NCBI GenBank assembly: GCA_017451645.1
Contig: JAFTNZ010000030.1
Coordinates: forward strand, 242,998-306,997
Direction: 5' to 3'
From: Bacteroidaceae bacterium
GTDB lineage: Bacteria > Bacteroidota > Bacteroidia > Bacteroidales > Bacteroidaceae
Length of the DNA: 64,000 nt
Shown here: positions 18,252 to 37,002 of the stretch, piece by piece
Layout: the number at the start of each line of letters is the position of its first letter
Numbering within the stretch: position 1 is the first letter of the stretch
Translations under genes and position numbers: made by a program
The notes under the pieces: model-generated
Databases searched by the model: none
The model's input: the letters and a program-made list of their open reading frames with translations, nothing else
What the model was told of the DNA's origin: nothing

Positions 18252-18304
18252 TCGCAATGGAAAAACGAATGTGAAACAATTACTTTAAAAACAACAAATT
18301 CTTC

Positions 18305-21300
18305 ATGAAGAAACTCTTTTTTATCTTGTCGTTGGGGTTGGTTTGTTGCACCGTGTCGGCACAAACTTATGTCAGTGCAGCAGCCTCGTATGCTGGAGGC
18401 GATGGTACGAAAGATAATCCTTACCAGATAGCCACGGCGGAGGAGTTGGCCAAACTTGCTCAAGATGTGAATGCCGGGAACCACTGGAGCCGGGGAAAAT
18501 ATTTTGTGTTGACGGCCGACATCGTGATTAACGAAAATCTCCTGTCCAAAACGACCGCCAATCTCGAGGGACAAAAGGCGGGCAAATTGCTGAAACCTGT
18601 CGGCACGTTTGCCAACTACGACACGTATGTACCCTTCATGGGCGTGTTCGACGGACAAGGCCACACCATCAGTGGTATGTATCAGGCCATCTACGAAGCC
18701 AATGATGCCCTTTTCCGCGCAACAGAGAATGCTGTGGTGAAGAATGTGAACATTCGCGACAGTTACATCTACGGAGGCAAATATTGTGCCGGAGTGGTAT
18801 CCTTCGGAGTGAACACCACCATCGAAAACTGCTCGTTCGAGGGGAAAATCAAATCGTGGGAGTGGTATGGTGCCGGCATTGCCGGACAGGTGACTGGGGC
18901 TTCGCGCATAGCGAACTGCTATGCCCGCTCGACCATCAATGCCAAGAGCTATCTGGGAGGTATTGTGGGTATTGTGGGCAAAGAGAGCGACGGTTCGACA
19001 GGTGAGAATCCCACGGTGGTGGAAAACTGTTACTCCTACTCCACCCTCACGCCTACAAGCGGCAGTGCAGGAATGATAGCCGGGCGAGTGAATGCGGCGG
19101 CTAAGGTACGCAATTGCTACTACCTGCCACAGGCTTCGAACACGGCCATCATCACCAATCATGGCACACAAGAAAATGTAGTGGCCATGGCCGAAGGAGA
19201 TTTTGCCACAACAGATTTTATCACCACCCTGAACACGAATGCCGAAGCGGTGCCAGGGGCTTGCCGTTGGAAACTGGTGGAGGGTGTGCCCACATTTGAC
19301 TATTCGACCTTCACACCCGACAATGAGACTGTCGATGTGAATAGTCAGGCAACTGACCCTATGCCGGCCAATGAAGATCTGCATGCGGAGAATGCCGATG
19401 GCAAGGTTTCGCTATCATGGAAAGCACCAGCCAATGGAAAAGCACTTTCTTATAAGGTATATACAGGTGCGGATGCCGATGCCGTAACGGCCATGACGGA
19501 GAGCGTAGCTACCGTGACGGATACCTGCTATACAGTGCAAACGGAAAATTACTATACTACAATCTATTGGCGCGTGGATGCGGTTGATGGCGATGGAAAT
19601 GTGACGAAGGGTGAAGTCTGGAGCTTCCGTCCGGCCCATCTGGCTTTCCCTGGTGCTGAAGGTTACGGACGTTATGCCAAGGGAGGTCGTGGAGGTAAAG
19701 TGGTGTATGTGACCAACCTGAAAGACTCTGGTGAAGGGTCGCTCCGCTGGGCACTGACCAACGGCTCGGGACCAAGAACCATCCTTTTCAAAGTGAGTGG
19801 TGTGATAGACATGAACTTCGATGCCGCTTTCATTGATGACGAAGTGACCATCGCCGGACAATCAGCCCCTGGGAAAGGCATCTGCCTGATGCATAGCGAC
19901 CTGTCGATAGGTTCTGATAATATCTTCCGGTTCATTCGTGCCCGCCGTGGAACTGGAGAAACGGGAAATGCCATGGGTGTAGCTGAGGCTAATCATGCCA
20001 TTGTTGACCACGTGACGGCCAGTTGGGGAACGGACGAGACATTCAGTTCGCGCAACTCCAAGAACATCACCTTCCAGCGCTCTATCATTGCCGAGGCATT
20101 GGGCATTGCCGGACACAAGAACTATCCTGCAGGCACTAACCATGGCTATGCGGCCACTATTGGAGGCGACATCGGATCTTTCCACCACAACCTCTTGGCC
20201 AATTGTGCCGGACGCAACTGGAGTCTGGGTGGAGGAGCCGATGCCAGCGGCACGTATGCCGGACGTCTGGATATCTTCAACAATGTGGTCTATAACTGGG
20301 CAACACGCACCACTGATGGCGGTGCACACGAGGTCAATTTCGTGGGCAACTACTACAAGATGGGGCGCGCCACATCGCTCACTACCCTGCTGACGCTCGA
20401 AATCGAGGGCAACCTCAAGGGTACACAGAGTGTCTATGTGAAAGGTAATGTGCGCGACAATATGAACGGCACTCTCACCACTGACAAACTCAACGATACT
20501 TATAAATTGAACATTCGCGACGGACGTGGTTCACTCGATTGGGAGCCGTGGGCTACAGTCCCCTTCTTTCCCTCGTATGCAGAAATAGAGACGGCTCAAG
20601 AAGCATACAAATCGGTGCTGAGCGACATCGGTGCCAATATGCCTATGGTGGACAATACCGACCGACGCATCGTGAACGAAACAATGAACCGTAGCTACAC
20701 CTATACAGGAAGCAAGAGCGGCATTAAGGGACAGATTGATTCCGAAGCTGATTGTGGCGGATACGAAGTTTATCCTGAAGAAACTTATCCTGAAGATTTC
20801 GATACGGACCTTGACGGACTTCCCGACTGGTGGGAGGAAATTCGTGGTACCGAAACTCATTCTCCGGCAGGAGATTTTACCGACTCGAATGCCGATGTTG
20901 ATGGCGACGGATACACCGCATTGGAGGAGTATCTCGACTTCATGGCTGTCCCCCACCATCTGGTAGAGTCCGACACCGTGCTCGTGCTCGATGTGGCCGA
21001 CCTCTTCAAGGGATACACTAAGGCTCCTGTCTATAGTGCTACCTGTCCGGACGGACATCTGCAAGTGTCTGTAAATGGCCAACAGATTACTGTAAAACCT
21101 ACGACTGATAATGTATTGAGTGAACTATCCATCACTGTCACTGATAGCGAAGGGCATGGTTATACACGTCGTGTAGCCTTCGGTGTGAGCCAAAAGGCTG
21201 CCGCCACAAGCATTGCTCATGCCTGTACGGATGTAGATATTCCTCTACGCTCATTCAGTATCTACACAATGGACGGCGCTTTGATAAAACAGGGACATTG

Positions 21301-24414: not shown

Positions 24415-24570
24415 TCAGAAAAAGACACCCTGTTTGTGGCAATACTCCTTCAACTCCCTGTACTCCACCTTCCGCATCATCCGTTCCAAGGCATTCATAC
24501 CAAGGTTCATAGCCAGGAAGCAAATGACAGGCAAAGCAAAGATAATAATATATAATATTGTACGTCTCAT
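24415..24570 (-). CDS. 51-aa single-span membrane peptide at the end of the island operon
   Basis: ATG 24570 opens a short frame: MRRTILYIIIFALPVICFLA, one hydrophobic segment after two Arg (so N-in), then a charged helix NALERMMRKVEYRELKEYCHK ending at TGA 24415-24417. It begins 8 bp after the 159-aa gene upstream, which points to co-transcription and coupling. No family recognised. It could be an accessory subunit or a toxic or anchoring peptide; nothing in the sequence decides. The remaining 160 bp to the PL9 gene hold nothing I can name. Confidence 0.5.
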   Translation of the reverse strand: MRRTILYIIIFALPVICFLAMNLGMNALERMMRKVEYRELKEYCHKQGVFF

Positions 24571-24578
24571 GCTCTTAT

Positions 24579-25058
24579 TCACAACATCGGATTCGGTTCC
24601 TCAAAAATATACACATCATAAACACTATTCAAAAAAGTCTGGATATGTACTCCCATTTTCATATCCGAAGTTTTGACCAACACATCTGCATAACCGTAAT
24701 ACTGTCTGAATCCCGTAGGAATGATTGATGTCGAATAGACATCCACATTTTCGAAATATTCCGAGAATATTTTTATAAATTCCTCCTTGTCAATCAAGTT
24801 ATATTCTTCATGACGAATCATTGGATAGCGATAACAGTAACAAGAGAAAGATACCGGATTGGTCAGATAAGGTTTGATTATAGACGTATCGTTGCCTGTG
24901 ATTGCATCCGCAAAAGCCTTATGTACAATTCGTTTGTCGTATTTCCTTTGTTCTCGGACAAACAAGTCTTCATACTCTCCTTCTTGAGTTCTTCCCCACG
25001 AATCCAACACTCCGTCATAATCAAACCTATAATATATTCTCTTCATCAATGATTCCAT
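24579..25058 (-). CDS. Unknown protein related to the tail of the 249-aa membrane protein
   Basis: 159 aa from ATG 25058, which has a GAAGGAAG sequence just upstream; a TTG at 25076 is the only other option. The segment KAFADAITGNDTSIIKPYLTNPVSF parallels KAFERAWQTLDASIVEPYLTHDF in the 249-aa island protein, and both then have a short KEE(Y/F) stretch and a strand-rich end. This layout (helices then a curved sheet, with an A-x-x-x-x-D-x-SII-x-PYLT entry) suggests an NTF2-like fold. No signal peptide. Own -7 box 39 bp upstream. Function unknown. Confidence 0.6.
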   Translation of the reverse strand: MESLMKRIYYRFDYDGVLDSWGRTQEGEYEDLFVREQRKYDKRIVHKAFADAITGNDTSIIKPYLTNPVSFSCYCYRYPMIRHEEYNLIDKEEFIKIFSEYFENVDVYSTSIIPTGFRQYYGYADVLVKTSDMKMGVHIQTFLNSVYDVYIFEEPNPML

Positions 25059-25096
25059 GGTTCTTCCTTCAGTCAATTCAGATTATATTCTTTGTG

Positions 25097-25104
25097 CAAA
25101 GGTA
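25097..25104 (-). promoter_or_regulatory. -7 box before the 159-aa island gene
   Basis: TACCTTTG on the minus strand; no TTTG at the expected -33 distance. Confidence 0.4.
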
Positions 25105-25132
25105 ATCATTTATTTTGGTTTACATTGTGACC

Positions 25133-26272
25133 TTACAGATATTCCCAAAAATCTTTCGGCAGTTTCACATTGTCGAGTTTGGCACAGTCTGCAAACATAG
25201 GAGCGATGTTGTAAACACTCCATCCGGCAGTTCCGCATCCGATGCGTGTGACAAAGAAAGTAAGTTCGGGATGGTCTGTCGCAAATTGATGGAAACGGCA
25301 GACGGCGGCATATAATTCTTTCAAGCTGACTCCATCGGTAGGAATGGCATACGATTGTCCTTGCAATCCCTCTGCTTGCCCGTTGATGGCACCAAAGGAC
25401 TGGAATGCACATGCCGATGCTCCCCCACTATAAATACCGTAAATGTTGCTTCCGAAAACAAATATTTCATTCTCTTTCAGCGAGGTGACCATTTCAGGAG
25501 TAATGCGGTCAGGATTGACCTCTTTTTTCGTATAGTAGTTTCCACTATTCTCTCTCTTGCTGAATGAAGCTCTGGACATTTCATCTTCCATTAGGATATT
25601 AAGACTATATTTGGCATTTGAACGTAATCTTGCTTCGCGTTCACGTTTCCACATAGCACCTGTTTGTGCGTCGGTTTGCTTAAATTGCATAAAGTTGTCT
25701 ATGTGTAGCTTTTTCCCATAATCAGCCGCATCAATATTCGCTCCGATAAAAGAGAATATCACATTCTTCTCTTTCAACTCATCAATCAAAGTTTTCACCG
25801 AATTAAGGTTGTATTCACGCGATGCATTCTCATACCCATCTGTAATGATGGTGACATATCCCAATGTATCCTTTTCTCTTTCAATTGTCCGTTTCAGTTC
25901 GGTAAGCGTGAAACCCAAAGCATCAAAAAGCGGAGTGCCGGCATACGGACGATAGTCTTCTTCTGTTATCTCCCGAACCTTATCAACCTTTTCATCTTTG
26001 ATTATATATCGACTTTTCGTCGTATTAAACAGATAGATTGACACATAGTGCAGTTGTGTTTCAATCGTCTGTTCCTGCATCATCCGAATTGTCTGTATCG
26101 TTTCATTACATCCCGAGATGGTAGCTCTTCTAATACATCCCATCGAACCACTTTCATCCAATACGATGAGGTGATAGACAGAGGTCATTCTTTTAGAATC
26201 CTTACTCTTATTTGCTTCCGTTTGCGGCTTCATTTGGCGCACTTTTTTACTGAATAGATTTTTCCAAGACAT
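25133..26272 (-). CDS. von Willebrand A domain fused to a macro-like (A1S_2505-type) domain
   Basis: 379 aa. Residues ~28-215 form a VWA domain with the metal-ion site DESGSMG (DxSxS), a Thr in YAGTPLFDAL and Asp in IITDGYEN. A basic linker follows (KREREARLRSNAKYSLN). Residues ~255-379 carry EIFVFGSNIYGIYSGGASACAFQSFGA, GLQGQSYAIPTDG and FFVTRIGCGTAGW, the pattern of phage and plasmid proteins of the A1S_2505 type, which resemble macro domains that bind ADP-ribose-like ligands. The fusion suggests a metal-dependent protein-binding module joined to a nucleotide sensor or eraser; that reading is inference. Own promoter with the shared palindrome upstream. Confidence 0.7.
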   Translation of the reverse strand: MSWKNLFSKKVRQMKPQTEANKSKDSKRMTSVYHLIVLDESGSMGCIRRATISGCNETIQTIRMMQEQTIETQLHYVSIYLFNTTKSRYIIKDEKVDKVREITEEDYRPYAGTPLFDALGFTLTELKRTIEREKDTLGYVTIITDGYENASREYNLNSVKTLIDELKEKNVIFSFIGANIDAADYGKKLHIDNFMQFKQTDAQTGAMWKREREARLRSNAKYSLNILMEDEMSRASFSKRENSGNYYTKKEVNPDRITPEMVTSLKENEIFVFGSNIYGIYSGGASACAFQSFGAINGQAEGLQGQSYAIPTDGVSLKELYAAVCRFHQFATDHPELTFFVTRIGCGTAGWSVYNIAPMFADCAKLDNVKLPKDFWEYL

Positions 26273-26303
26273 ATTGCTGTTGATTTAAATTGTTAGTTGA
26301 CGG

Positions 26304-26311
26304 CAAAGGTA
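26304..26311 (-). promoter_or_regulatory. -7 box of the VWA-macro gene
   Basis: TACCTTTG on the minus strand, 31 bp before ATG 26272, in the widest (87 bp) gap of the island operon. Confidence 0.45.
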
Positions 26312-26334
26312 CAAGGAATAACTATTCGGTACGG

Positions 26335-26357
26335 ACTTTTGCAAGGCTTGCAAATAG
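26335..26357 (-). promoter_or_regulatory. Shared 23-bp near-palindrome, copy 1
   Basis: Core TTGCAAGGCTTGCAA (26339-26353) is a perfect palindrome around one base. The whole 23 bp matches 33924-33946 except for the central base and one flank base, in the same orientation. It lies 27 bp upstream of the -7 box of the VWA-macro gene, where an activator or repressor could bind. Confidence 0.6.
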
Positions 26358-26359
26358 TT

Positions 26360-27109
26360 CTATTCTTTCTCTTCTTTCCTTAAATCTGTAAGAAAACAAA
26401 TTCCTGGCATACACAAATCGGCACGATAGGCTTTTCCATCTTTTACGGAAATAACCAAAATAGCTTTTCGTTCCTCTTTACCGTCCTTTTGTGTTATGAT
26501 TATACCGTTGTATCCCTCTTTGGCAATCTTGGCTTCGACTGGTGCATTCCCATTTCGTATGGCTCTAAATTTTCCTGTTAGATAGTCCATATATTCTTTT
26601 TTGTTTTCAATATCTGTAAATGACCACATTGAGGTGTGGCAAAAGTCATGAGTCAAATAAGGTTCAACGATAGAAGCATCCAATGTTTGCCAAGCTCTTT
26701 CAAAAGCCTTGATAACACTAAGTTTTTCTGTTATTATATTTTCTTTCAATGCCTTTACATACTTTTCTCCATACACATCTTCAAGTGTAAAGTTAGTGTT
26801 GTGCCTTTTGTTATATTCTGCCAGTGATATGACATTTCTTCTGTCAGACACAAATGTCTTCAGTATATCTCGTGTCTTTTTAGGTAATGGAGCGGGACGA
26901 TTTCTATAGTACAAGAAATCCCACAAAGGTTTCAAGAAAGCGAATAAGAAAATGGGCGATAGAATGATAATTATAGGTATCGCTACAAATATAGACAACC
27001 AAAAATATTCTCCATCAGAATCTACTTCTTTAAAATAATTCTTAATCGCAAATATTGCGCATGGTAGCAACAATATGCAGCAAATGACAATCAAAACAGT
27101 GGTGTTCAT
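26360..27109 (-). CDS. Two-span membrane protein with NTF2-like tail
   Basis: 249 aa. Hydrophobic segments at about residues 3-24 and 38-62 anchor it, then a cytoplasmic part of ~180 residues: a helical stretch (TRDILKTFVSDRRNVISLAEYNK) and the KAFERAWQTLDASIVEPYLTHDF...KKEYMDYLTGKFRAI domain shared with the 159-aa protein downstream. The strand pattern after it (VEAKIAKEGYNGIIITQKDGKEERKAILVISVKDGK) supports an NTF2-like sheet. No catalytic motif seen. The start is 10 bp after the TPR gene ends, so translation is probably coupled. Confidence 0.6.
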   Translation of the reverse strand: MNTTVLIVICCILLLPCAIFAIKNYFKEVDSDGEYFWLSIFVAIPIIIILSPIFLFAFLKPLWDFLYYRNRPAPLPKKTRDILKTFVSDRRNVISLAEYNKRHNTNFTLEDVYGEKYVKALKENIITEKLSVIKAFERAWQTLDASIVEPYLTHDFCHTSMWSFTDIENKKEYMDYLTGKFRAIRNGNAPVEAKIAKEGYNGIIITQKDGKEERKAILVISVKDGKAYRADLCMPGICFLTDLRKEEKE

Positions 27110-27119
27110 ATAGCGTTAA

Positions 27120-28967
27120 TTATTTTTTTTCTTTGTTCAATTTGTTATAAAGTTTTAAATCTTCGTCAGCTTCTTGCATCATACCCATCTTTCGATAAAT
27201 CTCTGCTCGGGTAATGTACGTTTGTGGTACTAAATCCGCCTCATTGCGAGTTTGGAAATAGTGGTTAATCATTTCCAATGCCTTTTCATATTGTCCCGAT
27301 AAACAATAGGCTTCAGCTTGATTGTTAAGCGCAATCCCCCATCTTTTTTCATCATGGTCAATTAGTTTCTGATTGTCAGCAATGGCCTCTTCATATCTTC
27401 CAACTTCGGCATAGAGTGCAGCCCGATGCAGATAGGCAATGTATGATGTGGGGAATCTGTTGAGATGGTCAGTCAATAGTTGTATCATCTTTGATTTAGA
27501 AACACTTTCTTCCCTTATCAAGTCTTGCAAATGTGTCAAACTACTCCTTTCATCCTTCAACCGTTGCAATGCTTGGGTTATTTTATCTGTGGGTTGAATG
27601 ATTGCAATATTCCTGATTTCCTCTGGATAAATGACAAGTTCTCTCGGCAATACCACTTTTTTCAAATGTTTTGTATCAACAAAAGTCAAACCATCACGTT
27701 CATATTCTTCCCGTTTCCCTTTGGCTACAATATAATAGTTTTTAGCAATAAAGTCATCAGCCACTTTCAAGAAAGCCTCTTTAATGCGCGAACATTTTTC
27801 ATTGATGGCATTGTCCGTCACATCCACTAATCGGCGAACACTTTCGCGTTGTTTTTCTACATTCTCTCTATTGGATAACACTTTATATATAGCCAGTATT
27901 TCATCATAGTAAGCAGAAAGCACCTTAAACTCCACCCCTTCAGGATGGCGTAGATAGAAGATGTAGAGTGCTTTCTGAATGGGAGTCATTTTCACCTCCT
28001 TGTCATAATCCGTCAGGATGATTCGATAATCATCGGTTATTTCCATTCGGCTTAATGCGGGTACTGTTTGCACACTCTTCAGTTCATTCACTAAATCGTC
28101 ACCCAAGGTATGGAGCAGCAGTTCATAATATCCTGCTTCTTTCAAAGTCTCAATTTCTTTCTTTATATTCTCTGCAATCTCTTTCATTTTTATCGGGAAC
28201 TCACTTTCTATTGCTTCTTGTACAGGGCTGTACCCTAATTCTCCTATCTCTTTATCCCATTGCGGATTCCATAATGGTGTGAGAAGATGATAAAACACAC
28301 TTGGACGTAGCCGTTGTTCTGCTATCTCATGAAGATACTTCGGGAGAAACTGTGCAATCTCTTCTTTATTCAACCCTTTCATGGAACAAAGAGTAAACTT
28401 TGTCTTATCAAATCCATCTTTTTCTGCATTGTATTGCTGTGCAAAATGGAAAATTCCACAATAATCATCTCCCACATCAAAGCTTAACACCTTCATCAGA
28501 TGCTTGCTATATTGTTCTGTTGTCAATGAGGAAAGGAGTTCTTTTATTCTTTGAATTTTACTTTCCCCTAAGTTTACTAAGTCCAATCGCGAGGTATCAG
28601 GTTCCCAACGTGGTACATAAATAAATCGATAGCCATATTTTTCAAACTCATTGTTGATTTCTTCCCAATGATTTTGGATATAGCCGTTCACCTGTTCATT
28701 GTAGTTGCTCTCCACATAGATAAACACCGTTTCGTTCATATCAAACGGAAGTTCGCCATCATAGAAAAGACTCGTTATCTGATAGCCTATCCATTCTTCC
28801 GTTTTGTTGACGAATCGGTCATGTTTCCGTTGCATCTGCCGATTGATATATTCCTGCATTTCTTTGTCTTCTTTCTTTTTTTCTCGTTTCTTTTTGAAAT
28901 GCATATATATGGCAAACAGATAGCAGGGAAGCACTAAGGCTATGAGGATGATTATAAAAGTGGTCAT
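27120..28967 (-). CDS. Membrane-anchored TPR protein with a winged-helix-like middle domain
   Basis: 615 aa. A single N-terminal membrane segment (about residues 2-20) is followed by a Lys-rich stop-transfer stretch. Residues ~330-430 (TPIQKALYIFYLRHPEGVEF...NAINEKCSRIKEAFLKVADD) match a short conserved domain that I have met as part of unnamed Bacteroidetes proteins; its helix-rich build and SINEKCSRI-type motif suggest a winged-helix or scaffold role. Residues ~500-615 hold at least three TPR-like helical repeats (YIAYLHRAALYAEVGRYEEAI; GIALNNQAEAYCLSGQYEKAL; TYITRAEIYRKMGMMQEAD). Probably a membrane-tethered adaptor for the other island proteins. Exact role unknown. Confidence 0.65.
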   Translation of the reverse strand: MTTFIIILIALVLPCYLFAIYMHFKKKREKKKEDKEMQEYINRQMQRKHDRFVNKTEEWIGYQITSLFYDGELPFDMNETVFIYVESNYNEQVNGYIQNHWEEINNEFEKYGYRFIYVPRWEPDTSRLDLVNLGESKIQRIKELLSSLTTEQYSKHLMKVLSFDVGDDYCGIFHFAQQYNAEKDGFDKTKFTLCSMKGLNKEEIAQFLPKYLHEIAEQRLRPSVFYHLLTPLWNPQWDKEIGELGYSPVQEAIESEFPIKMKEIAENIKKEIETLKEAGYYELLLHTLGDDLVNELKSVQTVPALSRMEITDDYRIILTDYDKEVKMTPIQKALYIFYLRHPEGVEFKVLSAYYDEILAIYKVLSNRENVEKQRESVRRLVDVTDNAINEKCSRIKEAFLKVADDFIAKNYYIVAKGKREEYERDGLTFVDTKHLKKVVLPRELVIYPEEIRNIAIIQPTDKITQALQRLKDERSSLTHLQDLIREESVSKSKMIQLLTDHLNRFPTSYIAYLHRAALYAEVGRYEEAIADNQKLIDHDEKRWGIALNNQAEAYCLSGQYEKALEMINHYFQTRNEADLVPQTYITRAEIYRKMGMMQEADEDLKLYNKLNKEKK

Positions 28968-28982
28968 GCTATTGAGTATTTA

Positions 28983-30209
28983 TCATATATCCAGTTTGTA
29001 CTCTCTAATTAACTCGTCCACCATTTCATCATCAAGCAAAGGCTCTATGGCATCATACATTGGAGCCGAACATCGGATTTCACATTTGCCGACTTCAATC
29101 ATTCTCAAATACAATCTGAATAATGGTTGATTCCAGATTACTCTCGGATTCCTTGCTATTACATTCCAATCCAATTCATCTATGTGTTCAGTAATGAATG
29201 TATAATCTAATGGAAGATAAGCATACAAACTTCTTTTCAGATTCTCATCTTGATATTTTTTCTTCGCCAATTCTATTCTTGCTGCATCAATAGGATGTAA
29301 TGTGTGATTAGAGATTTTTTGTAAGTGGTCGAATGTTTCATTGATATTATCAATACCCATTTGTGCGATAAAACCTTTATTTTCCAATAATAGTTTCAGT
29401 CCAATATCTTGAACATTTAAACCTTTGGCTATATCTTCAACCAAATCCCAATCCCATGACGTGAATTCGTTAGACATCAAAGAGGTTCTTAGTTGTGCAC
29501 TATAACGTTGTTCCCGATTTAATATATTATTTGCATCAGTTCCAATGCTTATTGTTCCTGCATAAGCTTCAGCTTGCATATAAAACGGGTAATCTAATTT
29601 TATGAGATTTTCAAAGTCCGAAGATATCGGATTGATGATTTCCTGATTATTGTGAAAGTCTATAATGTAATTTTGTCTGTATATTTTAGGATTTCGCTCT
29701 AATGATACATATTGAATTGTATAACGACCAGCAGATTTAAAATGTGAGCCATATTTATTGGCTTTTCCATACAAGTAGATAGAACTTTTAATGCCAAACT
29801 CATAGATAGAAGTAAAATCGGAGAAAACTTCGATATACTGTGGAGTTCCCTGTCCTATGGGGAACTTTCTTCCATATTTGACAAATAACTTATAGTTATA
29901 AAAGCGGCTTTTGTGATTAACTTCCTTGAAGAAAATGTATTCTTGTTCCTCATTCAACGGATAAAACCTTTTTATAATCATTTTAAGTAGCATTTTTGCA
30001 TACTTATCACTTAATGGAAACGTGTTTAATATTAGATTTTTAATATTGGTACGTATAAACCTTTCACGTTGTTCCAAAAGGTCTTTTACTCTATTGATAT
30101 TATAACGCATTTGTGCCAATGTTGTTACATTACACAAATCTTCGTAAGATAAAGAAGTCGTGTCACTTACTACAATTTCGTTATTTGTTTTGATTATGAG
30201 ATCTTTCAT
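28983..30209 (-). CDS. Unknown protein, larger member of the island paralogue pair
   Basis: 408 aa. Unknown family. Its second half is clearly related to the 262-aa protein two genes beyond the helicase: WDWDLVEDIAK vs WTWDLVKLIHK, GFIAQMGIDNINET vs GFVAQMGIDNIEDT, LYAYLPLDYTFI vs LYSYLSIPKEFI, IDELDWNVIARNP vs QDELDWNILQQNP, and APMYDAIEPLL vs LTMYKAISSLI. The first half, absent from the smaller protein, is basic and strand-rich (YNYKLFVKYGRKFPIGQGTPQYIEVFSD) and may bind nucleic acid or a partner. No signal peptide or membrane span. Ends 15 bp before the TPR gene. Very AT-rich coding sequence. Confidence 0.6.
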   Translation of the reverse strand: MKDLIIKTNNEIVVSDTTSLSYEDLCNVTTLAQMRYNINRVKDLLEQRERFIRTNIKNLILNTFPLSDKYAKMLLKMIIKRFYPLNEEQEYIFFKEVNHKSRFYNYKLFVKYGRKFPIGQGTPQYIEVFSDFTSIYEFGIKSSIYLYGKANKYGSHFKSAGRYTIQYVSLERNPKIYRQNYIIDFHNNQEIINPISSDFENLIKLDYPFYMQAEAYAGTISIGTDANNILNREQRYSAQLRTSLMSNEFTSWDWDLVEDIAKGLNVQDIGLKLLLENKGFIAQMGIDNINETFDHLQKISNHTLHPIDAARIELAKKKYQDENLKRSLYAYLPLDYTFITEHIDELDWNVIARNPRVIWNQPLFRLYLRMIEVGKCEIRCSAPMYDAIEPLLDDEMVDELIREYKLDI

Positions 30210-30235
30210 TTTAAGAGTATTACTTAACTATTATA

Positions 30236-32434
30236 TTATTTATTCTTCAAATCGTTGATTAATGGTCGAATTTTATCATCATATTCAGTATTACCGAAAT
30301 TGATTATAATCAGATTTCGTCTACATCTAGTTATACCTGTATATAATAATTCATCAAAAGACAAATTGAATGAGGTGTTTCCCTCGTATTTAGGTTCAAT
30401 AATTAGGAACACAACTTCACTTTCCCAACCTTTAAAAGAATTTATTGTAGAAATCTTTATAGTTCCCGAATTCATCCAAAAATGAATCTTTTTATTATCT
30501 CTAATATTCTTATAATCTCCGTTATATACCTTCTTTTTGAATTCTTGTAAATCCTCTTTGTAAAAATCTATAAAAGATAAAAAGGTATCGATAGAGATAC
30601 CAGATGCATCGCATTCTTCTTTTAATCTATTAACAAAAGTTGGATATAAATTATACAAATCAAAAATTGTAAATAACTTTGCAATGTGTTGACGCACTTT
30701 TGCGATTTTATGTTTCTGTAAATAATTTTTTGTGGCAAATATTTTTTCTGCCAATTGGTTAGAAAGACTTTTAAACCATTGACAACCATTTCCTTTATTA
30801 TTTTCTAAATAATTTAGATGTGTCATATACATTGCTTCGATTGTTTCAAACATTGCATTTGTACGTTCACGAGAAGCATAACGATAATAACAATCGAACA
30901 GACGAAGTAAGTTTGTTGTATACCCTAATACAGTAATATCATTGGGAGCTATATTATTTGACTTATTGACAATATTTCCCCATATAATATTATATAATGC
31001 AACAATGGAATCAACATCGGATAAATACATATAATTAATATATCCTTCTTTTTCTACGGTTAATCCTAACGAGGCTAATCCTATAGCTTTTTCCTTTACT
31101 AATTCGTCAAGCTCATATTTGTTTTTAAAGAAATTTTGTTGAAAAGATTGCACAAGTTCTGTTATTTTAAAATCTGAACGATAACAATATTTCAATTCAT
31201 TGACACCTAATACATTTGTATGCACATCTTTCCCTTGTGTCGGTATCCCATATATATTTTGCTTAACATCACCAAATAATACATAATCACCTTGTGGATC
31301 ACGGAAATACCCCTTTATAATATCCATCCATGAACGATGATAATCTTGTATTTCATCGATAAATACAGCATCGTATTTTGTAATCCGATTTTTATGTTGT
31401 TCAAACAATCTAACATTTCCATAATAGTTTTTCTCTAAATATTCTCCAATCTTTTCTTTTGGATAATCATTTGGAATATGAAAATCTATATTTATGTTAT
31501 TTAATTCTGCATTTATGAATGAATGATAATTTATGATGATGAAGCTTTCAACAGGAAACACTTCATTGACATTCATGAGTTTATCATGAATAAAATTCTT
31601 TAATGTAAGATTGAATGTTAAAATTAAGATACGTGGAGATTCTGTTCGTTCCAAGGCTCTTTTATATGCTTGAACAGCACGAGCGGCTAAAACTGTAGTT
31701 TTACCAGATCCAAAAACACCTTTAATTCGTTGTTCTAATTTTCTTGAATATATGATTTCTTTTTGCTTTTCTGAATAATTCAAAGGTTCTCCTTGTGATT
31801 TCAAATGGATTGCCGGTGATAAAAGTCGTTTAAAATTGGCATAAAGGTCGTCCGTGAATAGGAATGAATGCCTTTCTTTACTTAAATAGCGTTTGTATAA
31901 TATTTTATTGAATACTCTCTCATCAAGTCCATCATTACCCAACAAGTCAATTTCTTTTAAGGATTTTATATATTTTTTATTATCTCTATATGGATTAATA
32001 AGGAGATTTTCTACTTCGAGTTGAGTCGCACAGTGAAAATAAACTGCGCATACAACTATATCAAAATGCCTGACATCTTTAATATGTTTTTCTAAAAGTT
32101 TATCAATATGCAGATCGAATAAATTCTGTTTGTATTTTTTTACTTGCTTTATTGGAGATTTAACTACAGCATTATTGGACTTATATATCCATTTTTTCTT
32201 TTCGTTCAATGAAAAGTTTTTAAGATTCCAATCCTTTACTTCGATTACCATGACTCCATTCCCTTCACGCATAATGATTACGTCTGGACGGTCTCCGTTT
32301 AAATACGGATTGAAATACACTTCATAAGAATCATCTAATACCCGACTTAGAAATTCTAATAAAGTTTTTTCACCAGCTGTTGGTGGAACTTTAAATCTAG
32401 CTATTTGCTCTAATGAAGGTTTAAATATTGCCAT
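30236..32434 (-). CDS. NERD-nuclease / superfamily 1 (UvrD-like) helicase fusion
   Basis: 732 aa. Residues ~15-110 form a NERD domain (AGEKTLLEFLSRVLDDSY...RPDVIIMREGNGVMVIEVKDWN), a nuclease-related PD-(D/E)xK fold; D and the E-V-K triad are in place. The helicase core follows: Walker A GVFGSGKTT (~residue 240), an ILILTFN motif Ia, Walker B VFIDEIQD (~355), FGDVKQNIYG (motif III), YRSDFKI (motif IV) and, near the end, INSFKGWE (motif V) and YTGITRCRR (motif VI). Such NERD-helicase proteins move on or cut DNA and recur in mobile and defence loci. Central enzyme of the island; coding sequence is about as AT-rich as anything in the window. Confidence 0.88.
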   Translation of the reverse strand: MAIFKPSLEQIARFKVPPTAGEKTLLEFLSRVLDDSYEVYFNPYLNGDRPDVIIMREGNGVMVIEVKDWNLKNFSLNEKKKWIYKSNNAVVKSPIKQVKKYKQNLFDLHIDKLLEKHIKDVRHFDIVVCAVYFHCATQLEVENLLINPYRDNKKYIKSLKEIDLLGNDGLDERVFNKILYKRYLSKERHSFLFTDDLYANFKRLLSPAIHLKSQGEPLNYSEKQKEIIYSRKLEQRIKGVFGSGKTTVLAARAVQAYKRALERTESPRILILTFNLTLKNFIHDKLMNVNEVFPVESFIIINYHSFINAELNNINIDFHIPNDYPKEKIGEYLEKNYYGNVRLFEQHKNRITKYDAVFIDEIQDYHRSWMDIIKGYFRDPQGDYVLFGDVKQNIYGIPTQGKDVHTNVLGVNELKYCYRSDFKITELVQSFQQNFFKNKYELDELVKEKAIGLASLGLTVEKEGYINYMYLSDVDSIVALYNIIWGNIVNKSNNIAPNDITVLGYTTNLLRLFDCYYRYASRERTNAMFETIEAMYMTHLNYLENNKGNGCQWFKSLSNQLAEKIFATKNYLQKHKIAKVRQHIAKLFTIFDLYNLYPTFVNRLKEECDASGISIDTFLSFIDFYKEDLQEFKKKVYNGDYKNIRDNKKIHFWMNSGTIKISTINSFKGWESEVVFLIIEPKYEGNTSFNLSFDELLYTGITRCRRNLIIINFGNTEYDDKIRPLINDLKNK

Positions 32435-32464
32435 AAGTGAAAATCTTTATAATTCAAAGAAATG

Positions 32465-32698
32465 CTAGTCTATATTCCATAAAAGACTTGCATCGCCTTC
32501 AAATGCATCTTGAATCATATCTTCGTATGAATAATCTCTATAATTGTAGAAATTATCATATTCACCTTGATTCACATCATAATCACTATCATCATCGTAA
32601 TCGTCATATTCTTCTTGCTGTTCATTTTCTTTCTGTATTGCACGTCTATGCTGAGGTATATCTATTACAGCGACTGCGTATAAATTGGTTAACTTCAT
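32465..32698 (-). CDS. 77-aa very acidic protein
   Basis: After a short start (MKLTNLYAVAVIDIPQHRR) the protein is dominated by Asp, Glu and Tyr (EEYDDYDDDSDYDVNQGEYD, YRDYSYEDMIQDAF). It lies 30 bp upstream of the helicase gene and 23 bp after its upstream neighbour, so it is part of the operon. Such composition could mimic DNA or mask a basic partner; this is inference. The frame is intact, the strand and spacing fit the operon, but no homologue is recognised. Confidence 0.55.
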   Translation of the reverse strand: MKLTNLYAVAVIDIPQHRRAIQKENEQQEEYDDYDDDSDYDVNQGEYDNFYNYRDYSYEDMIQDAFEGDASLLWNID

Positions 32699-32721
32699 GA
32701 TTTTATTTTTTATTAAATTGG

Positions 32722-33510
32722 CTAGTTTGTATATAGCTTTTTAATGTCACTTACAACTCTCTCATTAATTAAAGAACTTATTGCTTTATACATAGTTAGT
32801 GAACCTGTAATTTGAAAATTATCACATTTGTGAAGGAATAAATAAATTAGCTCTAAGTCCCAATGAATCAGAGGGTTTTGTTGGAGTATATTCCAATCTA
32901 GTTCATCCTGATACATAATGATGAATTCTTTAGGAATTGACAGATATGAATACAATATGTTTTTATCTCTGTATAGTTCTCTATAATATTCTTTTGTCTC
33001 TTTGGTTAGTTCTTCTCCATAAATTTGTTCTACTTTTGATATAGTGTCTTCTATATTATCAATCCCCATCTGCGCTACGAATCCTCTATTAGCTAATATC
33101 ACTTGTAATCCTGTTTCATATTTGTTATTATAATTAGAGTTCTTATGTATAAGTTTTACTAAATCCCATGTCCAATGAATGAATACTTTTTTCTTTAATT
33201 CACTACGAAAAACGGCTCCCTCATTCGTTGAATAAGTCAAACGTGAATCTTTTAGCCAACCAGTTTCATCGTTATATTCGATATTAATATCCGTTTTTAG
33301 TTCAATTAGTTTATTAAACAATTCAAGTCCTTTCGGATATTCCAATATATATTTTCGTAAAAGACTTAGTGATAATGTATCCATTTGTATTTGTACACTA
33401 TCTTTTAATTCTTGCATATTGTTTATATGCATTTGGAATTGCTCTAACATCTGATTATTATATTCCAAATCCGACACACTCTTGATTTTGCTTTTTATTT
33501 GTAATTCCAT
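32722..33510 (-). CDS. Unknown protein, smaller member of the island paralogue pair
   Basis: 262 aa. Shares the C-terminal ~200 residues with the 408-aa protein (see that entry for aligned motifs), including the highly similar RGFVAQMGIDNIEDT block and the repeated pattern DELDWNILQQNPLIHWDLELI, a W-x-x-L/I-x-x-NP-x-x-x-W unit that recurs. Its own N-terminus (residues 1-60) is a coiled-coil-like helix (EQFQMHINNMQELKDSVQIQMDTL). Duplicated genes with the helicase between them suggest a two-subunit complex or a specificity switch. Function unknown. Confidence 0.6.
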   Translation of the reverse strand: MELQIKSKIKSVSDLEYNNQMLEQFQMHINNMQELKDSVQIQMDTLSLSLLRKYILEYPKGLELFNKLIELKTDINIEYNDETGWLKDSRLTYSTNEGAVFRSELKKKVFIHWTWDLVKLIHKNSNYNNKYETGLQVILANRGFVAQMGIDNIEDTISKVEQIYGEELTKETKEYYRELYRDKNILYSYLSIPKEFIIMYQDELDWNILQQNPLIHWDLELIYLFLHKCDNFQITGSLTMYKAISSLINERVVSDIKKLYTN

Positions 33511-33528
33511 TTTATTTGTATCTTATTT

Positions 33529-33846
33529 CTATTTAGTTACTATATTTTTCACTTCATCCTTTATTGCATCCTCCCCTATTTTCCGCAGCATCTTATCACA
33601 TTCAGATATTTGATGATGACAAATTTCCATGATTTGCTGTTTTTCTTCAGGAGAAGCAGGCAGCATACCATATGAAACGAGAGAAGCAATGTTTGCAAGC
33701 CTTGCTCTACGATCCATTATTTGTCCAGCGGTATATAAAGTGTGTGCTTTGGACAGTGTATCACTTGCGCGACGTACCCTTTCGTTCTGCGAAATGAGAA
33801 TTTTCATCAAATCGGCTATATAGTCATTTGTTGATTGTCTGTACAT
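33529..33846 (-). CDS. 105-aa helical protein, first gene of the island operon
   Basis: Almost all helix by eye: NDYIADLMKILISQNERVRRASDTLSKAHTLYTAGQIMDRRARLANI, then SPEEKQQIMEICHHQISECDKMLRKIGED. No signal peptide, zinc motif or clear helix-turn-helix, although a small four-helix or regulator fold is possible. As first gene after a two-box promoter and the shared palindrome it could be the regulator or a small structural subunit. The sequence TTGCAAGCCTTGC inside it (33692-33704) matches 13 bases of the palindrome core. Confidence 0.55.
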   Translation of the reverse strand: MYRQSTNDYIADLMKILISQNERVRRASDTLSKAHTLYTAGQIMDRRARLANIASLVSYGMLPASPEEKQQIMEICHHQISECDKMLRKIGEDAIKDEVKNIVTK

Positions 33847-33874: not shown

Positions 33875-33904
33875 CAAAGGTATATAAAGTATTCTAAGGA
33901 ACAA
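33875..33904 (-). promoter_or_regulatory. Main promoter of the island operon
   Basis: Minus strand: TTG (33904-33902), 19-bp spacer, TACCTTTG (33882-33875); the start codon is 28 bp further on. Confidence 0.6.
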
Positions 33905-33923
33905 TGATAAATATAGATTATTT

Positions 33924-33946
33924 ACTTTTGCAAGCCTTGCAAACAG
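33924..33946 (-). promoter_or_regulatory. Shared 23-bp near-palindrome, copy 2
   Basis: Core TTGCAAGCCTTGCAA (33928-33942); same flanks and orientation as copy 1 at 26335-26357. It lies 19 bp upstream of the -33 box of the island operon promoter. Confidence 0.6.
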
Positions 33947-34404: not shown

Positions 34405-34619
34405 TTACTCCTGCAAATCTCTAATAAATTCTTCTAATCGGATAACAAGAATTTCAGGGAAAGGACTTTCTGCCAAGATACGAAAATGGGCATCTTCACT
34501 GACAATATAATCAGCTCCTGCTATGATGGCACAATCCACAAATTTATTATCGTCGGGAGACTATGCAAAGAAATCATTTGCACCAAACAATTAGTGTCAA
34601 GTACAACTCTTCTTTTCAT
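34405..34619 (-). pseudogene. Second PIN-domain toxin remnant with internal deletion
   Basis: Starts MKRRVVLDTNCLVQMIS at ATG 34619, 3 bp after the antitoxin stop: the N-terminus of a PIN-family toxin with its first Asp. A few codons later the frame breaks; in the next frame the C-terminal part is well preserved: PDDNKFVDCAIIAGADYIVSEDAHFRIL...EILVIRLEEFIRDLQE and stop at 34405-34407. The middle ~80 residues are missing. The conserved DDNKFVDCA and D-x-HF acidic residues remain, but the protein cannot be made as one chain. Confidence 0.8.
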
Positions 34620-34621
34620 AA

Positions 34622-34843
34622 TCATTGCTGATAAGGTGTACGGTAATGAGCAGTTTCCAGTTCTTGTAATGTCTGTTCATTCCAATCACCTGAAGCCCAA
34701 AGTTTTTCCATTTCTTCATCTGCACGACGAGCAAAGAACTCACTGATAGCATGCTTCAAAGCCATCAATTCAGCTTCATCTTTTACATCGGCCAAAACAT
34801 TGAGAAGCTCCAATTGTGCTTCATTAAAAATCATTCTACTCAT
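34622..34843 (-). CDS. Antitoxin of the second PIN module, toxin decayed
   Basis: 73 aa, intact. Helical throughout (NEAQLELLNVLADVKDEAELMALKHAISEFFARRADEEMEKLWASGDWNEQTLQEL) with a W-x-x-G-x-W-(N/S) element followed by an arginine tail, as in small Bacteroidetes antitoxins placed before PIN-family toxins of this kind. Stops 2 bp before the start of the toxin remnant. Unlike the first decayed module, its sequence does not contain WKDDRSA, so the two antitoxins are from different families. Confidence 0.65.
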   Translation of the reverse strand: MSRMIFNEAQLELLNVLADVKDEAELMALKHAISEFFARRADEEMEKLWASGDWNEQTLQELETAHYRTPYQQ

Positions 34844-35562: not shown

Positions 35563-37002
35563 TCAAAGGATGCTCTTTACAACCTCCATCATGCCCTTCT
35601 CTTGGATAGCGTCGAGGTAACCCTTAACGGCATCGGCAAGGCCGGGGATGTTGTTGAGGTTTTCACCCCAGATGCTTTCAGCGGCAAGCACACCTTCAGT
35701 AACCTTCTTGGTGCAACCGGTTGCCCACAGGTCGCTGAGGAGTTGCATGATTTCGGGAGCATCGTTGGGCACGATTTCAGCACCGTCGGCACGTACACCA
35801 CCCTTGTAGTAAGTGATGATGGCGGCAAGACCGAGTACAAGACCCTTGGGAAGTTCGCCCTTGCGCTCGAGGTAAGTCTTCAGACCGGGCAGGTCGCGTG
35901 TCTGGTATTTGGGGAATGAGTTGAGCATGATGCTGGTCACCTGATGGTCAACGAACGGGTTGTTGAAGCGCTCGAGCACATCCTCGGCAAACTTCTTCAG
36001 TTCGTCCTTCGGCAGGTTCAAAGTCTCCATCAGCTCCTCAAACATCACTTTGTTGATGTACTTGCCGATAACTTCGTGTTGGCAAGCCTCGCGTACGATG
36101 TTCAAACCTGCCAGATAAGCCACGGGTGAAAGTACGGTGTGAGGACCATTCAAGAGAGTCACCTTACGTTCGTGGTAAGGAGCCTCAGAAGGCACGAAGA
36201 GCACGTTCAATCCAGCCTTGTCGGCGGGGAATTCCTTGGCCACTTCCTGTGGAGCCTCGATAACCCAAAGGTGGAAGATTTCGGCCTGTACCACGAGATT
36301 GTCCTCATACTGGAGCTTGTCCTGAATAGCGGCAATGTCCTTGCGGGGGAAGCCCGGCACGATGCGGTCAACGAGTGTTGCATATACGCCGCAAGACTCT
36401 TCGAACCACTTGCTGAACTCTTCGCCCAGATTCCACAATTGGATGTACTTGCGGATGCAATCCTTCAGGTGGTGACCATTCAAGAAGATAAGCTCGCAGG
36501 GGAAGATGATGAGACCCTTAGTGGGGTCGCCATTGAAGGTCTTGAAACGATGGTAGAGCAACTGGGTGAGCTTACCGGGATAAGATGAGCAAGGAGCGTC
36601 GTCAATCTTACAAGCAGGATCGAAAGCGATACCGGCCTCAGTAGTGTTACTGATGACGAAACGCATCTCGGGTTGCTCGGCCAGCTTCATGTACTCGTCA
36701 AACTGAGAATAGGGATTCAGAGCGCGGCTGATGACATCGATGCGAGTGAGGCTGTTCACCACTTCACCTTTGTCAAGACCCTGAAGGTTCACATGATACA
36801 GACAATCTTGTCCGTTGAGCATGTCCACCATACCCTTCTCGATGGGTTGTACCACCACTACGCTGCTGTTGAAGTCGGCCTTCTCATTCATGTTGTAGAT
36901 GATCCAGTCAACGAATGCACGCAAAAAATTACCTTCACCAAACTGAATGATGCGTTCGGTGCGTTCTGCCTTCGGGGCAGTTTGTTTGTTCAATGGTCTC
37001 AT
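35563..37002 (-). CDS. uxaB: Tagaturonate reductase (altronate oxidoreductase)
   Basis: 479 aa, full length for UxaB of the mannitol dehydrogenase group. N-terminal IIQFGEGNFLRAFVDWIIYNMNE is the NAD-binding region; SNTTEAGIAFDP and PCELIFLNGHHLKDCI are family features, and the C-terminal domain has VTSIMLNSFPKYQTRDLPGLKTY with the catalytic Lys region. It reduces tagaturonate to altronate in the galacturonate (hexuronate) pathway. Divergent from uxaC over a 230-bp region; the PL1/PL9 and PL11 lyases on both sides would supply the galacturonate. uxaA and a dehydratase/aldolase pair are not in the window. Confidence 0.95.
   Translation of the reverse strand: MRPLNKQTAPKAERTERIIQFGEGNFLRAFVDWIIYNMNEKADFNSSVVVVQPIEKGMVDMLNGQDCLYHVNLQGLDKGEVVNSLTRIDVISRALNPYSQFDEYMKLAEQPEMRFVISNTTEAGIAFDPACKIDDAPCSSYPGKLTQLLYHRFKTFNGDPTKGLIIFPCELIFLNGHHLKDCIRKYIQLWNLGEEFSKWFEESCGVYATLVDRIVPGFPRKDIAAIQDKLQYEDNLVVQAEIFHLWVIEAPQEVAKEFPADKAGLNVLFVPSEAPYHERKVTLLNGPHTVLSPVAYLAGLNIVREACQHEVIGKYINKVMFEELMETLNLPKDELKKFAEDVLERFNNPFVDHQVTSIMLNSFPKYQTRDLPGLKTYLERKGELPKGLVLGLAAIITYYKGGVRADGAEIVPNDAPEIMQLLSDLWATGCTKKVTEGVLAAESIWGENLNNIPGLADAVKGYLDAIQEKGMMEVVKSIL

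Follow-up and report, generated by a model that had tools for sequence, protein, structure and literature searches.

Ten consecutive minus-strand genes in the genome of a Bacteroidaceae bacterium raise the question of whether genes that look like one system must also be one. The genes, here called g1 to g10, occupy positions 24415-33846 of the stretch that we analyzed, a window of 64,000 nucleotides (nt) from contig JAFTNZ010000030.1 (G000:C23:242998-306997 in our numbering; the source genome, G000, comprises 2.5 Mb and is 73% complete). The initial annotation had read them as a compact operon and a candidate undescribed system, and all ten open reading frames (ORFs) were verified at these positions. 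The comparisons described below point to a different arrangement, which we consider fairly probable: the region would be a regulator-operator chassis, made up of g6, two operators and g8/g9, with an exchangeable slot for nuclease cargo, and not a ten-part complex.

We found that a perfect palindrome of 17 bp, TTTGCAAG-N-CTTGCAAA, precedes both g1 and g8. When up to one mismatch was allowed, G000 contained exactly two such sites, both in this locus. At the same threshold, a genome of the same genus (G011) also contained exactly two, both in its g6/g8 locus.

In G011, a 62% relative of g6 is followed by g8 (78%), a 350-amino-acid (aa) gene, a WG-repeat gene of 309 aa and g9 (34%). It is preceded by a 923-aa metallo-beta-lactamase (MBL)-fold protein, and the NERD block g1-g5 is absent. 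The region before the G011 MBL gene is homologous to the promoter P1 region of the window (117 aligned positions, 80%, E 1.6e-25); with 2,200 bp compared to 1,600 bp, the second-best match between the two, in reverse orientation, spanned 29 positions (E 5.6e-6). The genes behind P1 in the two genomes are unrelated, and the regions of the second promoter, P2, are identical at 55 of 67 positions. Since P1, g6, operator 2 and g8 are common to the two loci but the interval from P1 to g6 is different, the contents of that interval appear to have been exchanged. The proposed chassis consists of operator 1 with P1, g6, operator 2 with P2, g8 and g9, and the cargo between P1 and g6 would be the AT-rich NERD block here and the MBL-fold protein in G011. 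The features are as follows (L075 is a related contig described below).

33927..33943, no strand: operator 1, exact 17-bp palindrome TTTGCAAG-N-CTTGCAAA, 80 bp upstream of g1
33875..33882, minus strand: putative promoter P1, -7 element TACCTTTG, 44 nt from operator 1; TTG 19 nt farther upstream
33529..33846, minus strand: g1, 105 aa, without significant family match; L075 copy 88%
32722..33510, minus strand: g2, 262 aa, paralogue of the C-terminal part of g5; L075 copy 94%
32465..32698, minus strand: g3, 77-aa acidic ORF, in-frame deletion remnant
30236..32434, minus strand: g4, 732 aa, NERD nuclease and UvrD-like superfamily 1 (SF1) helicase, motifs found
28983..30209, minus strand: g5, 408 aa, g2/g5 family
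27120..28967, minus strand: g6, 615 aa, N-terminal hydrophobic segment, variable N-terminal region, core at about residues 300-447, C-terminal TPR
26360..27109, minus strand: g7, 249 aa, with two hydrophobic stretches; without a detected counterpart at the G011 locus
26338..26354, no strand: operator 2, identical copy of the operator 1 palindrome, 65 bp upstream of g8
26304..26311, minus strand: putative promoter P2, -7 element TACCTTTG, 26 nt from operator 2; no TTG 18-23 nt upstream
25133..26272, minus strand: g8, 379 aa, fusion of a VWA-like domain and an A1S_2505-family domain
25097..25104, minus strand: possible third promoter in the g8-g9 gap, TACCTTTG element without palindrome (position counted by hand)
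24579..25058, minus strand: g9, 159 aa, without significant family match; accompanies g8 in G005 (80%) and G011 (34%)
24415..24570, minus strand: g10, 51-aa hydrophobic ORF, doubtful

The operon had been described as having gaps of 8-30 bp and as AT-rich throughout. Such gaps were found at seven of the nine junctions, but the g7-g8 gap measures 87 bp and the g8-g9 gap 74 bp, and each of them contains a -7-like TACCTTTG element. Because these two gaps are long and each carries such an element, the ten genes probably form at least two transcription units. The GC content at third codon positions is 0.22-0.32 in g1-g5, 0.32-0.42 in g6-g9 and 0.58 in g10; the 41 other mechanical ORFs of the window have a mean of 0.51 (standard deviation 0.09, lowest 0.21). 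Strong AT-richness is restricted to the NERD-helicase block g1-g5. Scans for sigma-70 promoters and for terminators gave results no better than shuffles. Between g1 and the next gene (34486-34843) lie overlapping short ORFs, among them a 73-aa minus-strand one that looks antitoxin-like by eye and has no Pfam match.

The operator palindrome and its promoters

The distribution of the palindrome was analyzed in 38 genomes at up to one mismatch. Sixteen of these carry a g6-like gene; 20 gave no g6 match, weak matches in the TPR range or short ones, and two (G212 and G238) stood outside the g6 comparison. The search returned 17 distinct sites in 12 genomes, and a reversed control pattern matched in 1 of the 38. 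Eight of the 17 sites lie within g6/g8 loci: besides those of G000 and G011, there is one site each in G050, G025 and G583, beside the g6-like gene or its VWA neighbour, and one of three sites in G063 beside its g6-like gene. The nine others (two each in G063 and G212 and one each in G047, G018, G013, G010 and G009) include six inside ORFs of at least 240 aa and one inside a 73-aa mechanical ORF.

The outer arms of the palindrome vary by lineage (TTTG, AATG, TCTG, TCCA), and the CAAG half-site is constant. We then examined the window and 60 loci retrieved by means other than the pattern for perfect palindromes that have a CAAG-N-CTTG core and a length of 17 bp or more. Nine occur in the 111,389 bp within 3 kb of the 16 g6-like genes. 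The other 923,009 bp contain a single one, operator 1 of the window, which lies 5 kb from g6. The enrichment has a binomial P of 1.8e-8, a post hoc value, since the core was generalized after palindromes had been viewed in ten of the same loci. Some CAAG-core site is present in 12 of the 16 g6-like loci; those of L035, L037 and L193 have one mismatch.

The sites also stand at set distances from -7 elements. A passage of PMC7366714 gives TAnnTTTG as the consensus of the Bacteroides -7 element, and this motif has a background of 5.3e-4 per position. In a hand-made list of 17 sites (those of g6 loci, the G063 TPR gene and G013; sites inside ORFs and L075 were not included), TAnnTTTG lies 26 nt from the palindrome at seven sites (g8 of the window, g8 of G011, G063, G050, G583, G019 and the G063 TPR gene), 25 nt at two, 33-34 nt at four and 44 nt at two (g1 of the window and the G011 MBL gene; g1 of L075 has this spacing too). 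The motif is absent near the palindrome at two sites, L043 and L249, and at two others, L036 and L045, it also occurs on the palindrome's other side. Wherever the element was found, the palindrome centre lies at least 33 nt upstream of it.

Among perfect 8-1-8 palindromes of the fetched DNA, a -7 element at 20-48 nt accompanies 10 of 13 with the CAAG core versus 1 of 38 without it (Fisher P 2.3e-7); sites in related loci are not independent, and three of the 13 (L249-L251) had been retrieved through the pattern search and so were preselected for the palindrome, though not for the -7 element. The exact palindrome also occurs in 71 viral-contig stretches, and the g6 profile finds a g6-like gene in none of them. 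Two of these stretches (L273:2007-2792 and L307:12496-13281) match residues 707-881 of the G011 MBL-fold protein at 30% (E 9e-15). In L036:8185-10375, a palindrome with two mismatches stands at 26-nt spacing before a gene of the tubulin/FtsZ family, and a g6-like gene follows immediately downstream; in L045 and on a Segatella plasmid (L079), too, genes of the FtsZ family occur near g6-like ones.

The candidate regulator g6 and the genes g7 to g10

Because the operator associates with g6 genes, we consider g6 a candidate operator-binding regulator. The protein has one hydrophobic N-terminal segment and TPRs, in agreement with its initial description as a membrane-anchored TPR protein. An alignment of 14 g6-like proteins revealed a common C-terminal core (g6 residues ~300-447), an N-terminal region common in part and an N-x-(I/L)-N-E...R-I stretch in 12 of the 14; in other loci the core is attached to different N-terminal regions. 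With this alignment as the query, five g6-like loci were found in viral contigs, where the core stands behind other N-termini, by eye one NTF2-like and one TerB-like. One viral contig (L259:351-2889) carries a tandem pair of g6-like genes, of which the first has a different N-terminus that looks NTF2-like. By eye, the order of elements in the core resembles that of OmpR-type winged helices, and the core is possibly of this fold; PF00486 was not among the 25 shown of the 35 families matched by the 14 members.

The mechanism that we propose starts with g6 sensing a signal, which may come from the envelope, DNA damage or a phage. A g6 dimer would bind the CAAG-N-CTTG palindrome via the core and switch both promoters on or, less likely, off. 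P1 would then drive the nuclease cargo together with more g6, and P2 would drive the VWA/A1S_2505 protein, perhaps along with g9. Judging by its NERD and helicase motifs, the cargo would act on foreign or damaged DNA by cutting or unwinding it. Activation is preferred because P2 lacks a TTG 18-23 nt upstream of its -7 element, a position that the palindrome adjoins. It was also considered that the operators may serve repression, with g6 silencing its own operon. This variant is compatible with the sequence, and the sites stand just upstream of the core promoter; however, a palindrome centre at least 33 nt upstream of the -7 element and the lack of a TTG at -33 in P2 would suit an activator better, and we regard repression as somewhat unlikely.

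The genes g7 and g9 had been taken for NTF2-like proteins, which we could not confirm. SnoaL matched g7 at E 0.054, below the cut-off, g9 had no significant family match, and the PDB matches of both were marginal and to unknown or unrelated proteins. The protein g8 had been described as a VWA/macro-like fusion. A VWA-like domain is present (Pfam 2.5e-4, 21.8 bits versus a cut-off of 23.8), but no macro family of Pfam or NCBIfam matched; residues 270-375 match the A1S_2505 family (NF049995, 2.8e-35), for which our literature search found no function. Matches to g8 occur in 160 of the 301 genomes of the family, its own included, and many span one of the two domains only. The 51-aa g10, initially listed as a membrane peptide, has no significant match in Pfam or NCBIfam, a PADLOC SIR2 profile match at E 0.0085 and no homologue in the compared loci, and it may not be a gene. 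Profile searches with Pfam, PADLOC and NCBIfam gave no convincing family for g1, g2, g3, g5, g7, g9 and g10.

The NERD-helicase block and the site

The identification of g4 as a NERD/SF1 helicase held: the protein matches Pfam NERD (2.6e-11) and the PADLOC profile C3a187 'NERD+UvrD' (4.4e-54), and a pattern scan detected PD-(D/E)xK-like and Walker motifs. The paralogy of g2 and g5 was likewise substantiated (E 1.9e-25, 37% across query residues 236-403). A scan of 84,980 species genomes for the g2/g5 pair returned a single relative, the 4,750-bp contig L075, with the gene order g1, g2, a 198-aa ORF, a 189-aa ORF and g4, truncated at the contig end. Since L075 has 93% DNA identity to the window and a common upstream region, its filing under a Lentimicrobiaceae metagenome-assembled genome suggests mis-binning.

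The comparison with L075 shed light on g3, which had been counted as an ordinary gene for an acidic protein. It consists of the first 11 codons of the L075-type 198-aa gene, joined in frame to the 3' part of the 189-aa gene. The L075/window DNA alignments meet at window positions 32665-32667 and leave 976 bp of L075 unmatched. From this alignment, g3 is the product of an in-frame deletion of ~976 bp, by which two cargo genes were lost here. The L075 arrangement is inferred to be ancestral because the g3 fusion holds pieces of both genes, and since L075 retains the two genes, intact copies exist outside the window. A plasmid search for g5 and the two intact L075 genes gave no match.

The members of the block have different relatives. 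No match to g5 was found in 100 relatives except the own genome; among the 301 family genomes it occurs in two others (G238 and G212), within arrays of small unknown genes, and a g2/g5 profile search of 393 genomes of the order gave, outside the own genome, marginal matches only (five genomes, E 1e-4 to 7e-4). By eye, the arrays around g2/g5 relatives in two genomes (L127:1-6600 and L128:4900-9900) have families of 205/215, 138/152 and 293/430 aa in common; the g2/g5 gene of L128 is broken. Relatives of g4 were found in 9 other genomes of the family and 12 others of the order. The close ones (G253 66%, G589 66%, G108 62% and a remnant, G686 52% and broken) all have different partners; in G253 these are an AAA ATPase and a protein of 326 aa. 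Three plasmid loci with g4 relatives had no obvious partners.

At L188:5804-14383, a 65% g4 relative with one in-frame TAA stands in an AT-rich block of defence-type context, where two proteins of 605 and 361 aa look by eye receiver-like and WYL-like, respectively. A second NERD-helicase type (837-1044 aa; L068-L073 and L193) repeatedly follows a 353-378-aa gene, and in six of seven loci it precedes a 101-110-aa gene; in L069, the sole locus tested, these neighbours are DUF1848 (Pfam) and TerB, respectively. A phage origin of the whole locus was rejected: neither single-protein nor pair scans of viral contigs turned up a relative of g2/g5, g4 or g6. One 11.6-kb phage record encodes a 29% g4 relative (E 1e-28).

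We also analyzed the flanks of the locus. In G013 and G014, a counterpart of window 35563-37002 is followed within ~0.3 kb by a relative of 18304-21216; since these flanks are nearly adjacent there, the window carries an additional ~14 kb (21.2-35.5 kb). G006, 93-97% identical at both flanks, has no match to g4, g5, g6 or g8, and its flanks lie on different contigs. By these comparisons the site is plastic. In favour of the initial reading, the locus is variable and carries a nuclease-helicase of a kind recorded in a defence database (PADLOC C3a187).

In G005, g8 (94%) and g9 (80%) stand next to DUF4407 and WG-like genes. Its g8-g9 DNA is 93% identical to the window, and the homology ends at window 26300, before operator 2. 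This genome (85% complete) has no g6 match and no palindrome site, and its locus contains two short CAAG-N-CTTG nonamers but no 17-bp palindrome. A caspase-like (C14) gene and a TPR-CHAT gene are arranged divergently to the G005 g8-g9 group (L113:13140-19242).

Other g6-like genes have neighbours of similar kinds. A NERD helicase stands one or two short genes away in G063 and G583, the G063 locus also has TerB-family and DnaJ-domain proteins within a few genes, and VWA proteins adjoin or sit one gene from g6-like genes in G030, G025, G032, G056 and G158. Because of the NERD helicases in G063 and G583 and of TerB and DnaJ in G063, these neighbourhoods point to a role in stress or defence, and the locus is probably an inducible defence or DNA-stress locus.

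The idea of the gene set as one system was supported in part: g6, g8, g9 and the promoters recur in G011, but the ten genes were not found together anywhere searched. A fixed ten-gene system was rejected, as g1-g5 do not accompany g6-g10 in the searched genomes. The neighbourhood search proposed initially also gave a divided answer. Parts recur in G011, but g5 is rare, the partners of g4 differ, and the near full-length g8 fusions in the loci of 14 other genomes have a g6-like neighbour in two (G011 and G158), with none seen in 12.

On the other hand, the two halves may be accidental neighbours, a horizontally acquired AT-rich NERD defence block (g1-g5) beside an unrelated stress or housekeeping VWA/TPR group (g6-g10). 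The unlike base composition of the halves, the other partners of the g4 relatives in G253, G589 and G108, the lack of obvious ones at the three plasmid loci and the 12 g8-fusion loci without a g6-like neighbour are all consistent with such an accident. However, the only two operator copies found in the genome precede both halves, P1 is common to a G011 locus with the same g6-g8 part and different cargo, and NERD helicases stand close to g6-like genes in G063 and G583. We therefore consider an accidental association unlikely.

Weighing the proposed chassis and its relation to known systems

Several observations weigh against the chassis with a dedicated regulator. Pfam and PDB profile searches for g6 gave nothing convincing. 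In hhalign the core matched the winged helix with a local P of 0.036, with 2 of 100 shuffled profiles equally good, a weak result; the global alignment did not outperform shuffles, 73 of 100 of which scored as well. An earlier run, whose input included three response-regulator sequences and a stray one, returned P 0.19. Beside the g6-like gene, no site at up to one mismatch is present in ten of the 16 g6-bearing genomes, and several of these carry variant spellings. No CAAG-core palindrome was found in four of the 16 g6-like loci (L039, L044, L046 and L115) or in the five viral-contig ones. The L036 site is reached only at two mismatches, the L045 palindrome lies 2.7 kb from its g6-like gene, inside a mechanical ORF, and both L038 sites are inside mechanical ORFs.

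Exact sites also occur away from g6. One in G009 is inside a 665-aa ORF, one in G013 (65% complete, no g6 found) lies near a contig end without a -7 element, and one in G063 (C25:759) stands, with 26-nt spacing, 53 bp before a TPR gene far from g6. Behind this last palindrome are a TPR-like gene of 679 aa and a 618-aa gene (L251:759-4871), which may be distant regulon members. In addition, the cargo swap rests on one genome pair, the window and G011, and the NERD block here, minus two genes at g3, may be impaired.

A host-wide regulator or nucleoid protein that binds the palindrome, with g6 merely one of its targets, would fit both the lack of a DNA-binding family for g6 in the PDB and Pfam searches and the intergenic G063 site, but is quite improbable given that both sites of G000 and both of G011 lie in g6 loci, that most of the sites outside g6/g8 loci fall inside ORFs, and that the outer arms differ between g6 lineages, as would be expected of a dedicated regulator.

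The initial annotation knew of no described system with this gene set, and indeed none of the searched libraries names it. Ter-type stress loci comprise TerB/TerC/TerD/TerY, VWA and DnaJ proteins. A likeness to them is seen in G063, where the g6 relative is near a NERD helicase, TerB and DnaJ, and in the VWA neighbours of g6-like genes, but the ten proteins of the window include no TerB, TerC or TerD match, and TerB was found in the relatives' loci L035 and L069 only. The PADLOC label C3a187 presumably denotes a NERD+UvrD protein beside a reverse transcriptase (a defence-associated reverse transcriptase context); g4 matches the profile, but there is no reverse transcriptase match among the ten proteins.

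Gabija consists of GajA, an OLD/TOPRIM-type ATPase nuclease, next to GajB, a UvrD-like helicase. While g4 matches GajB profiles (best 4.6e-14), it does so less well than C3a187, whose match covers NERD and the first helicase half; it also differs in its NERD fusion, and the ten proteins include no GajA-like match. In PMC10952713, a passage treats GajB as a helicase and a table places the NERD domain in Mokosh type I and Nhi-like systems. Although g4 has NERD, no Mokosh or Nhi profile is among its 21 PADLOC matches, and no phospholipase D match was found in the ten proteins.

The proposed design of g6 (membrane segment, variable region, DNA-binding core and a dedicated palindrome before the targets) is that of the ToxR/CadC-type membrane one-component regulators, from which g6 differs by its N-terminal hydrophobic segment, C-terminal TPR and lack of a significant OmpR-type wing match. 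The A1S_2505 family of g8 is annotated as a phage non-structural protein and has relatives in 39 viral-contig loci; in g8 it is fused to a VWA domain. In the open-licence literature, where the palindrome sequence itself was not searched, we found nothing on this locus, the operator or the combination of an operator with swappable cargo. The parts are of known kinds (a defence-type nuclease-helicase, VWA, TPR and a palindromic operator), and what appears new is the dedicated operator with swappable cargo.

More tentatively, and with something short of an even chance in our judgment, g6 could be the founder of an undescribed family of one-component regulators, probably of Bacteroidales, each with its own variant of CAAG-N-CTTG at fixed spacings from a -7 element, that control modular loci with strain-swapped nuclease, helicase, VWA, DnaJ or FtsZ-like cargo, a docking bay for inducible defence or stress genes. 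If the chassis reading is correct, a short DNA tag and a small regulator gene would mark the loci where nuclease cargo is exchanged. This would explain why the ten genes resemble one system yet fail to recur together, and the tag, searchable in any genome, could lead to new effectors of defence or stress that escape homology searches.

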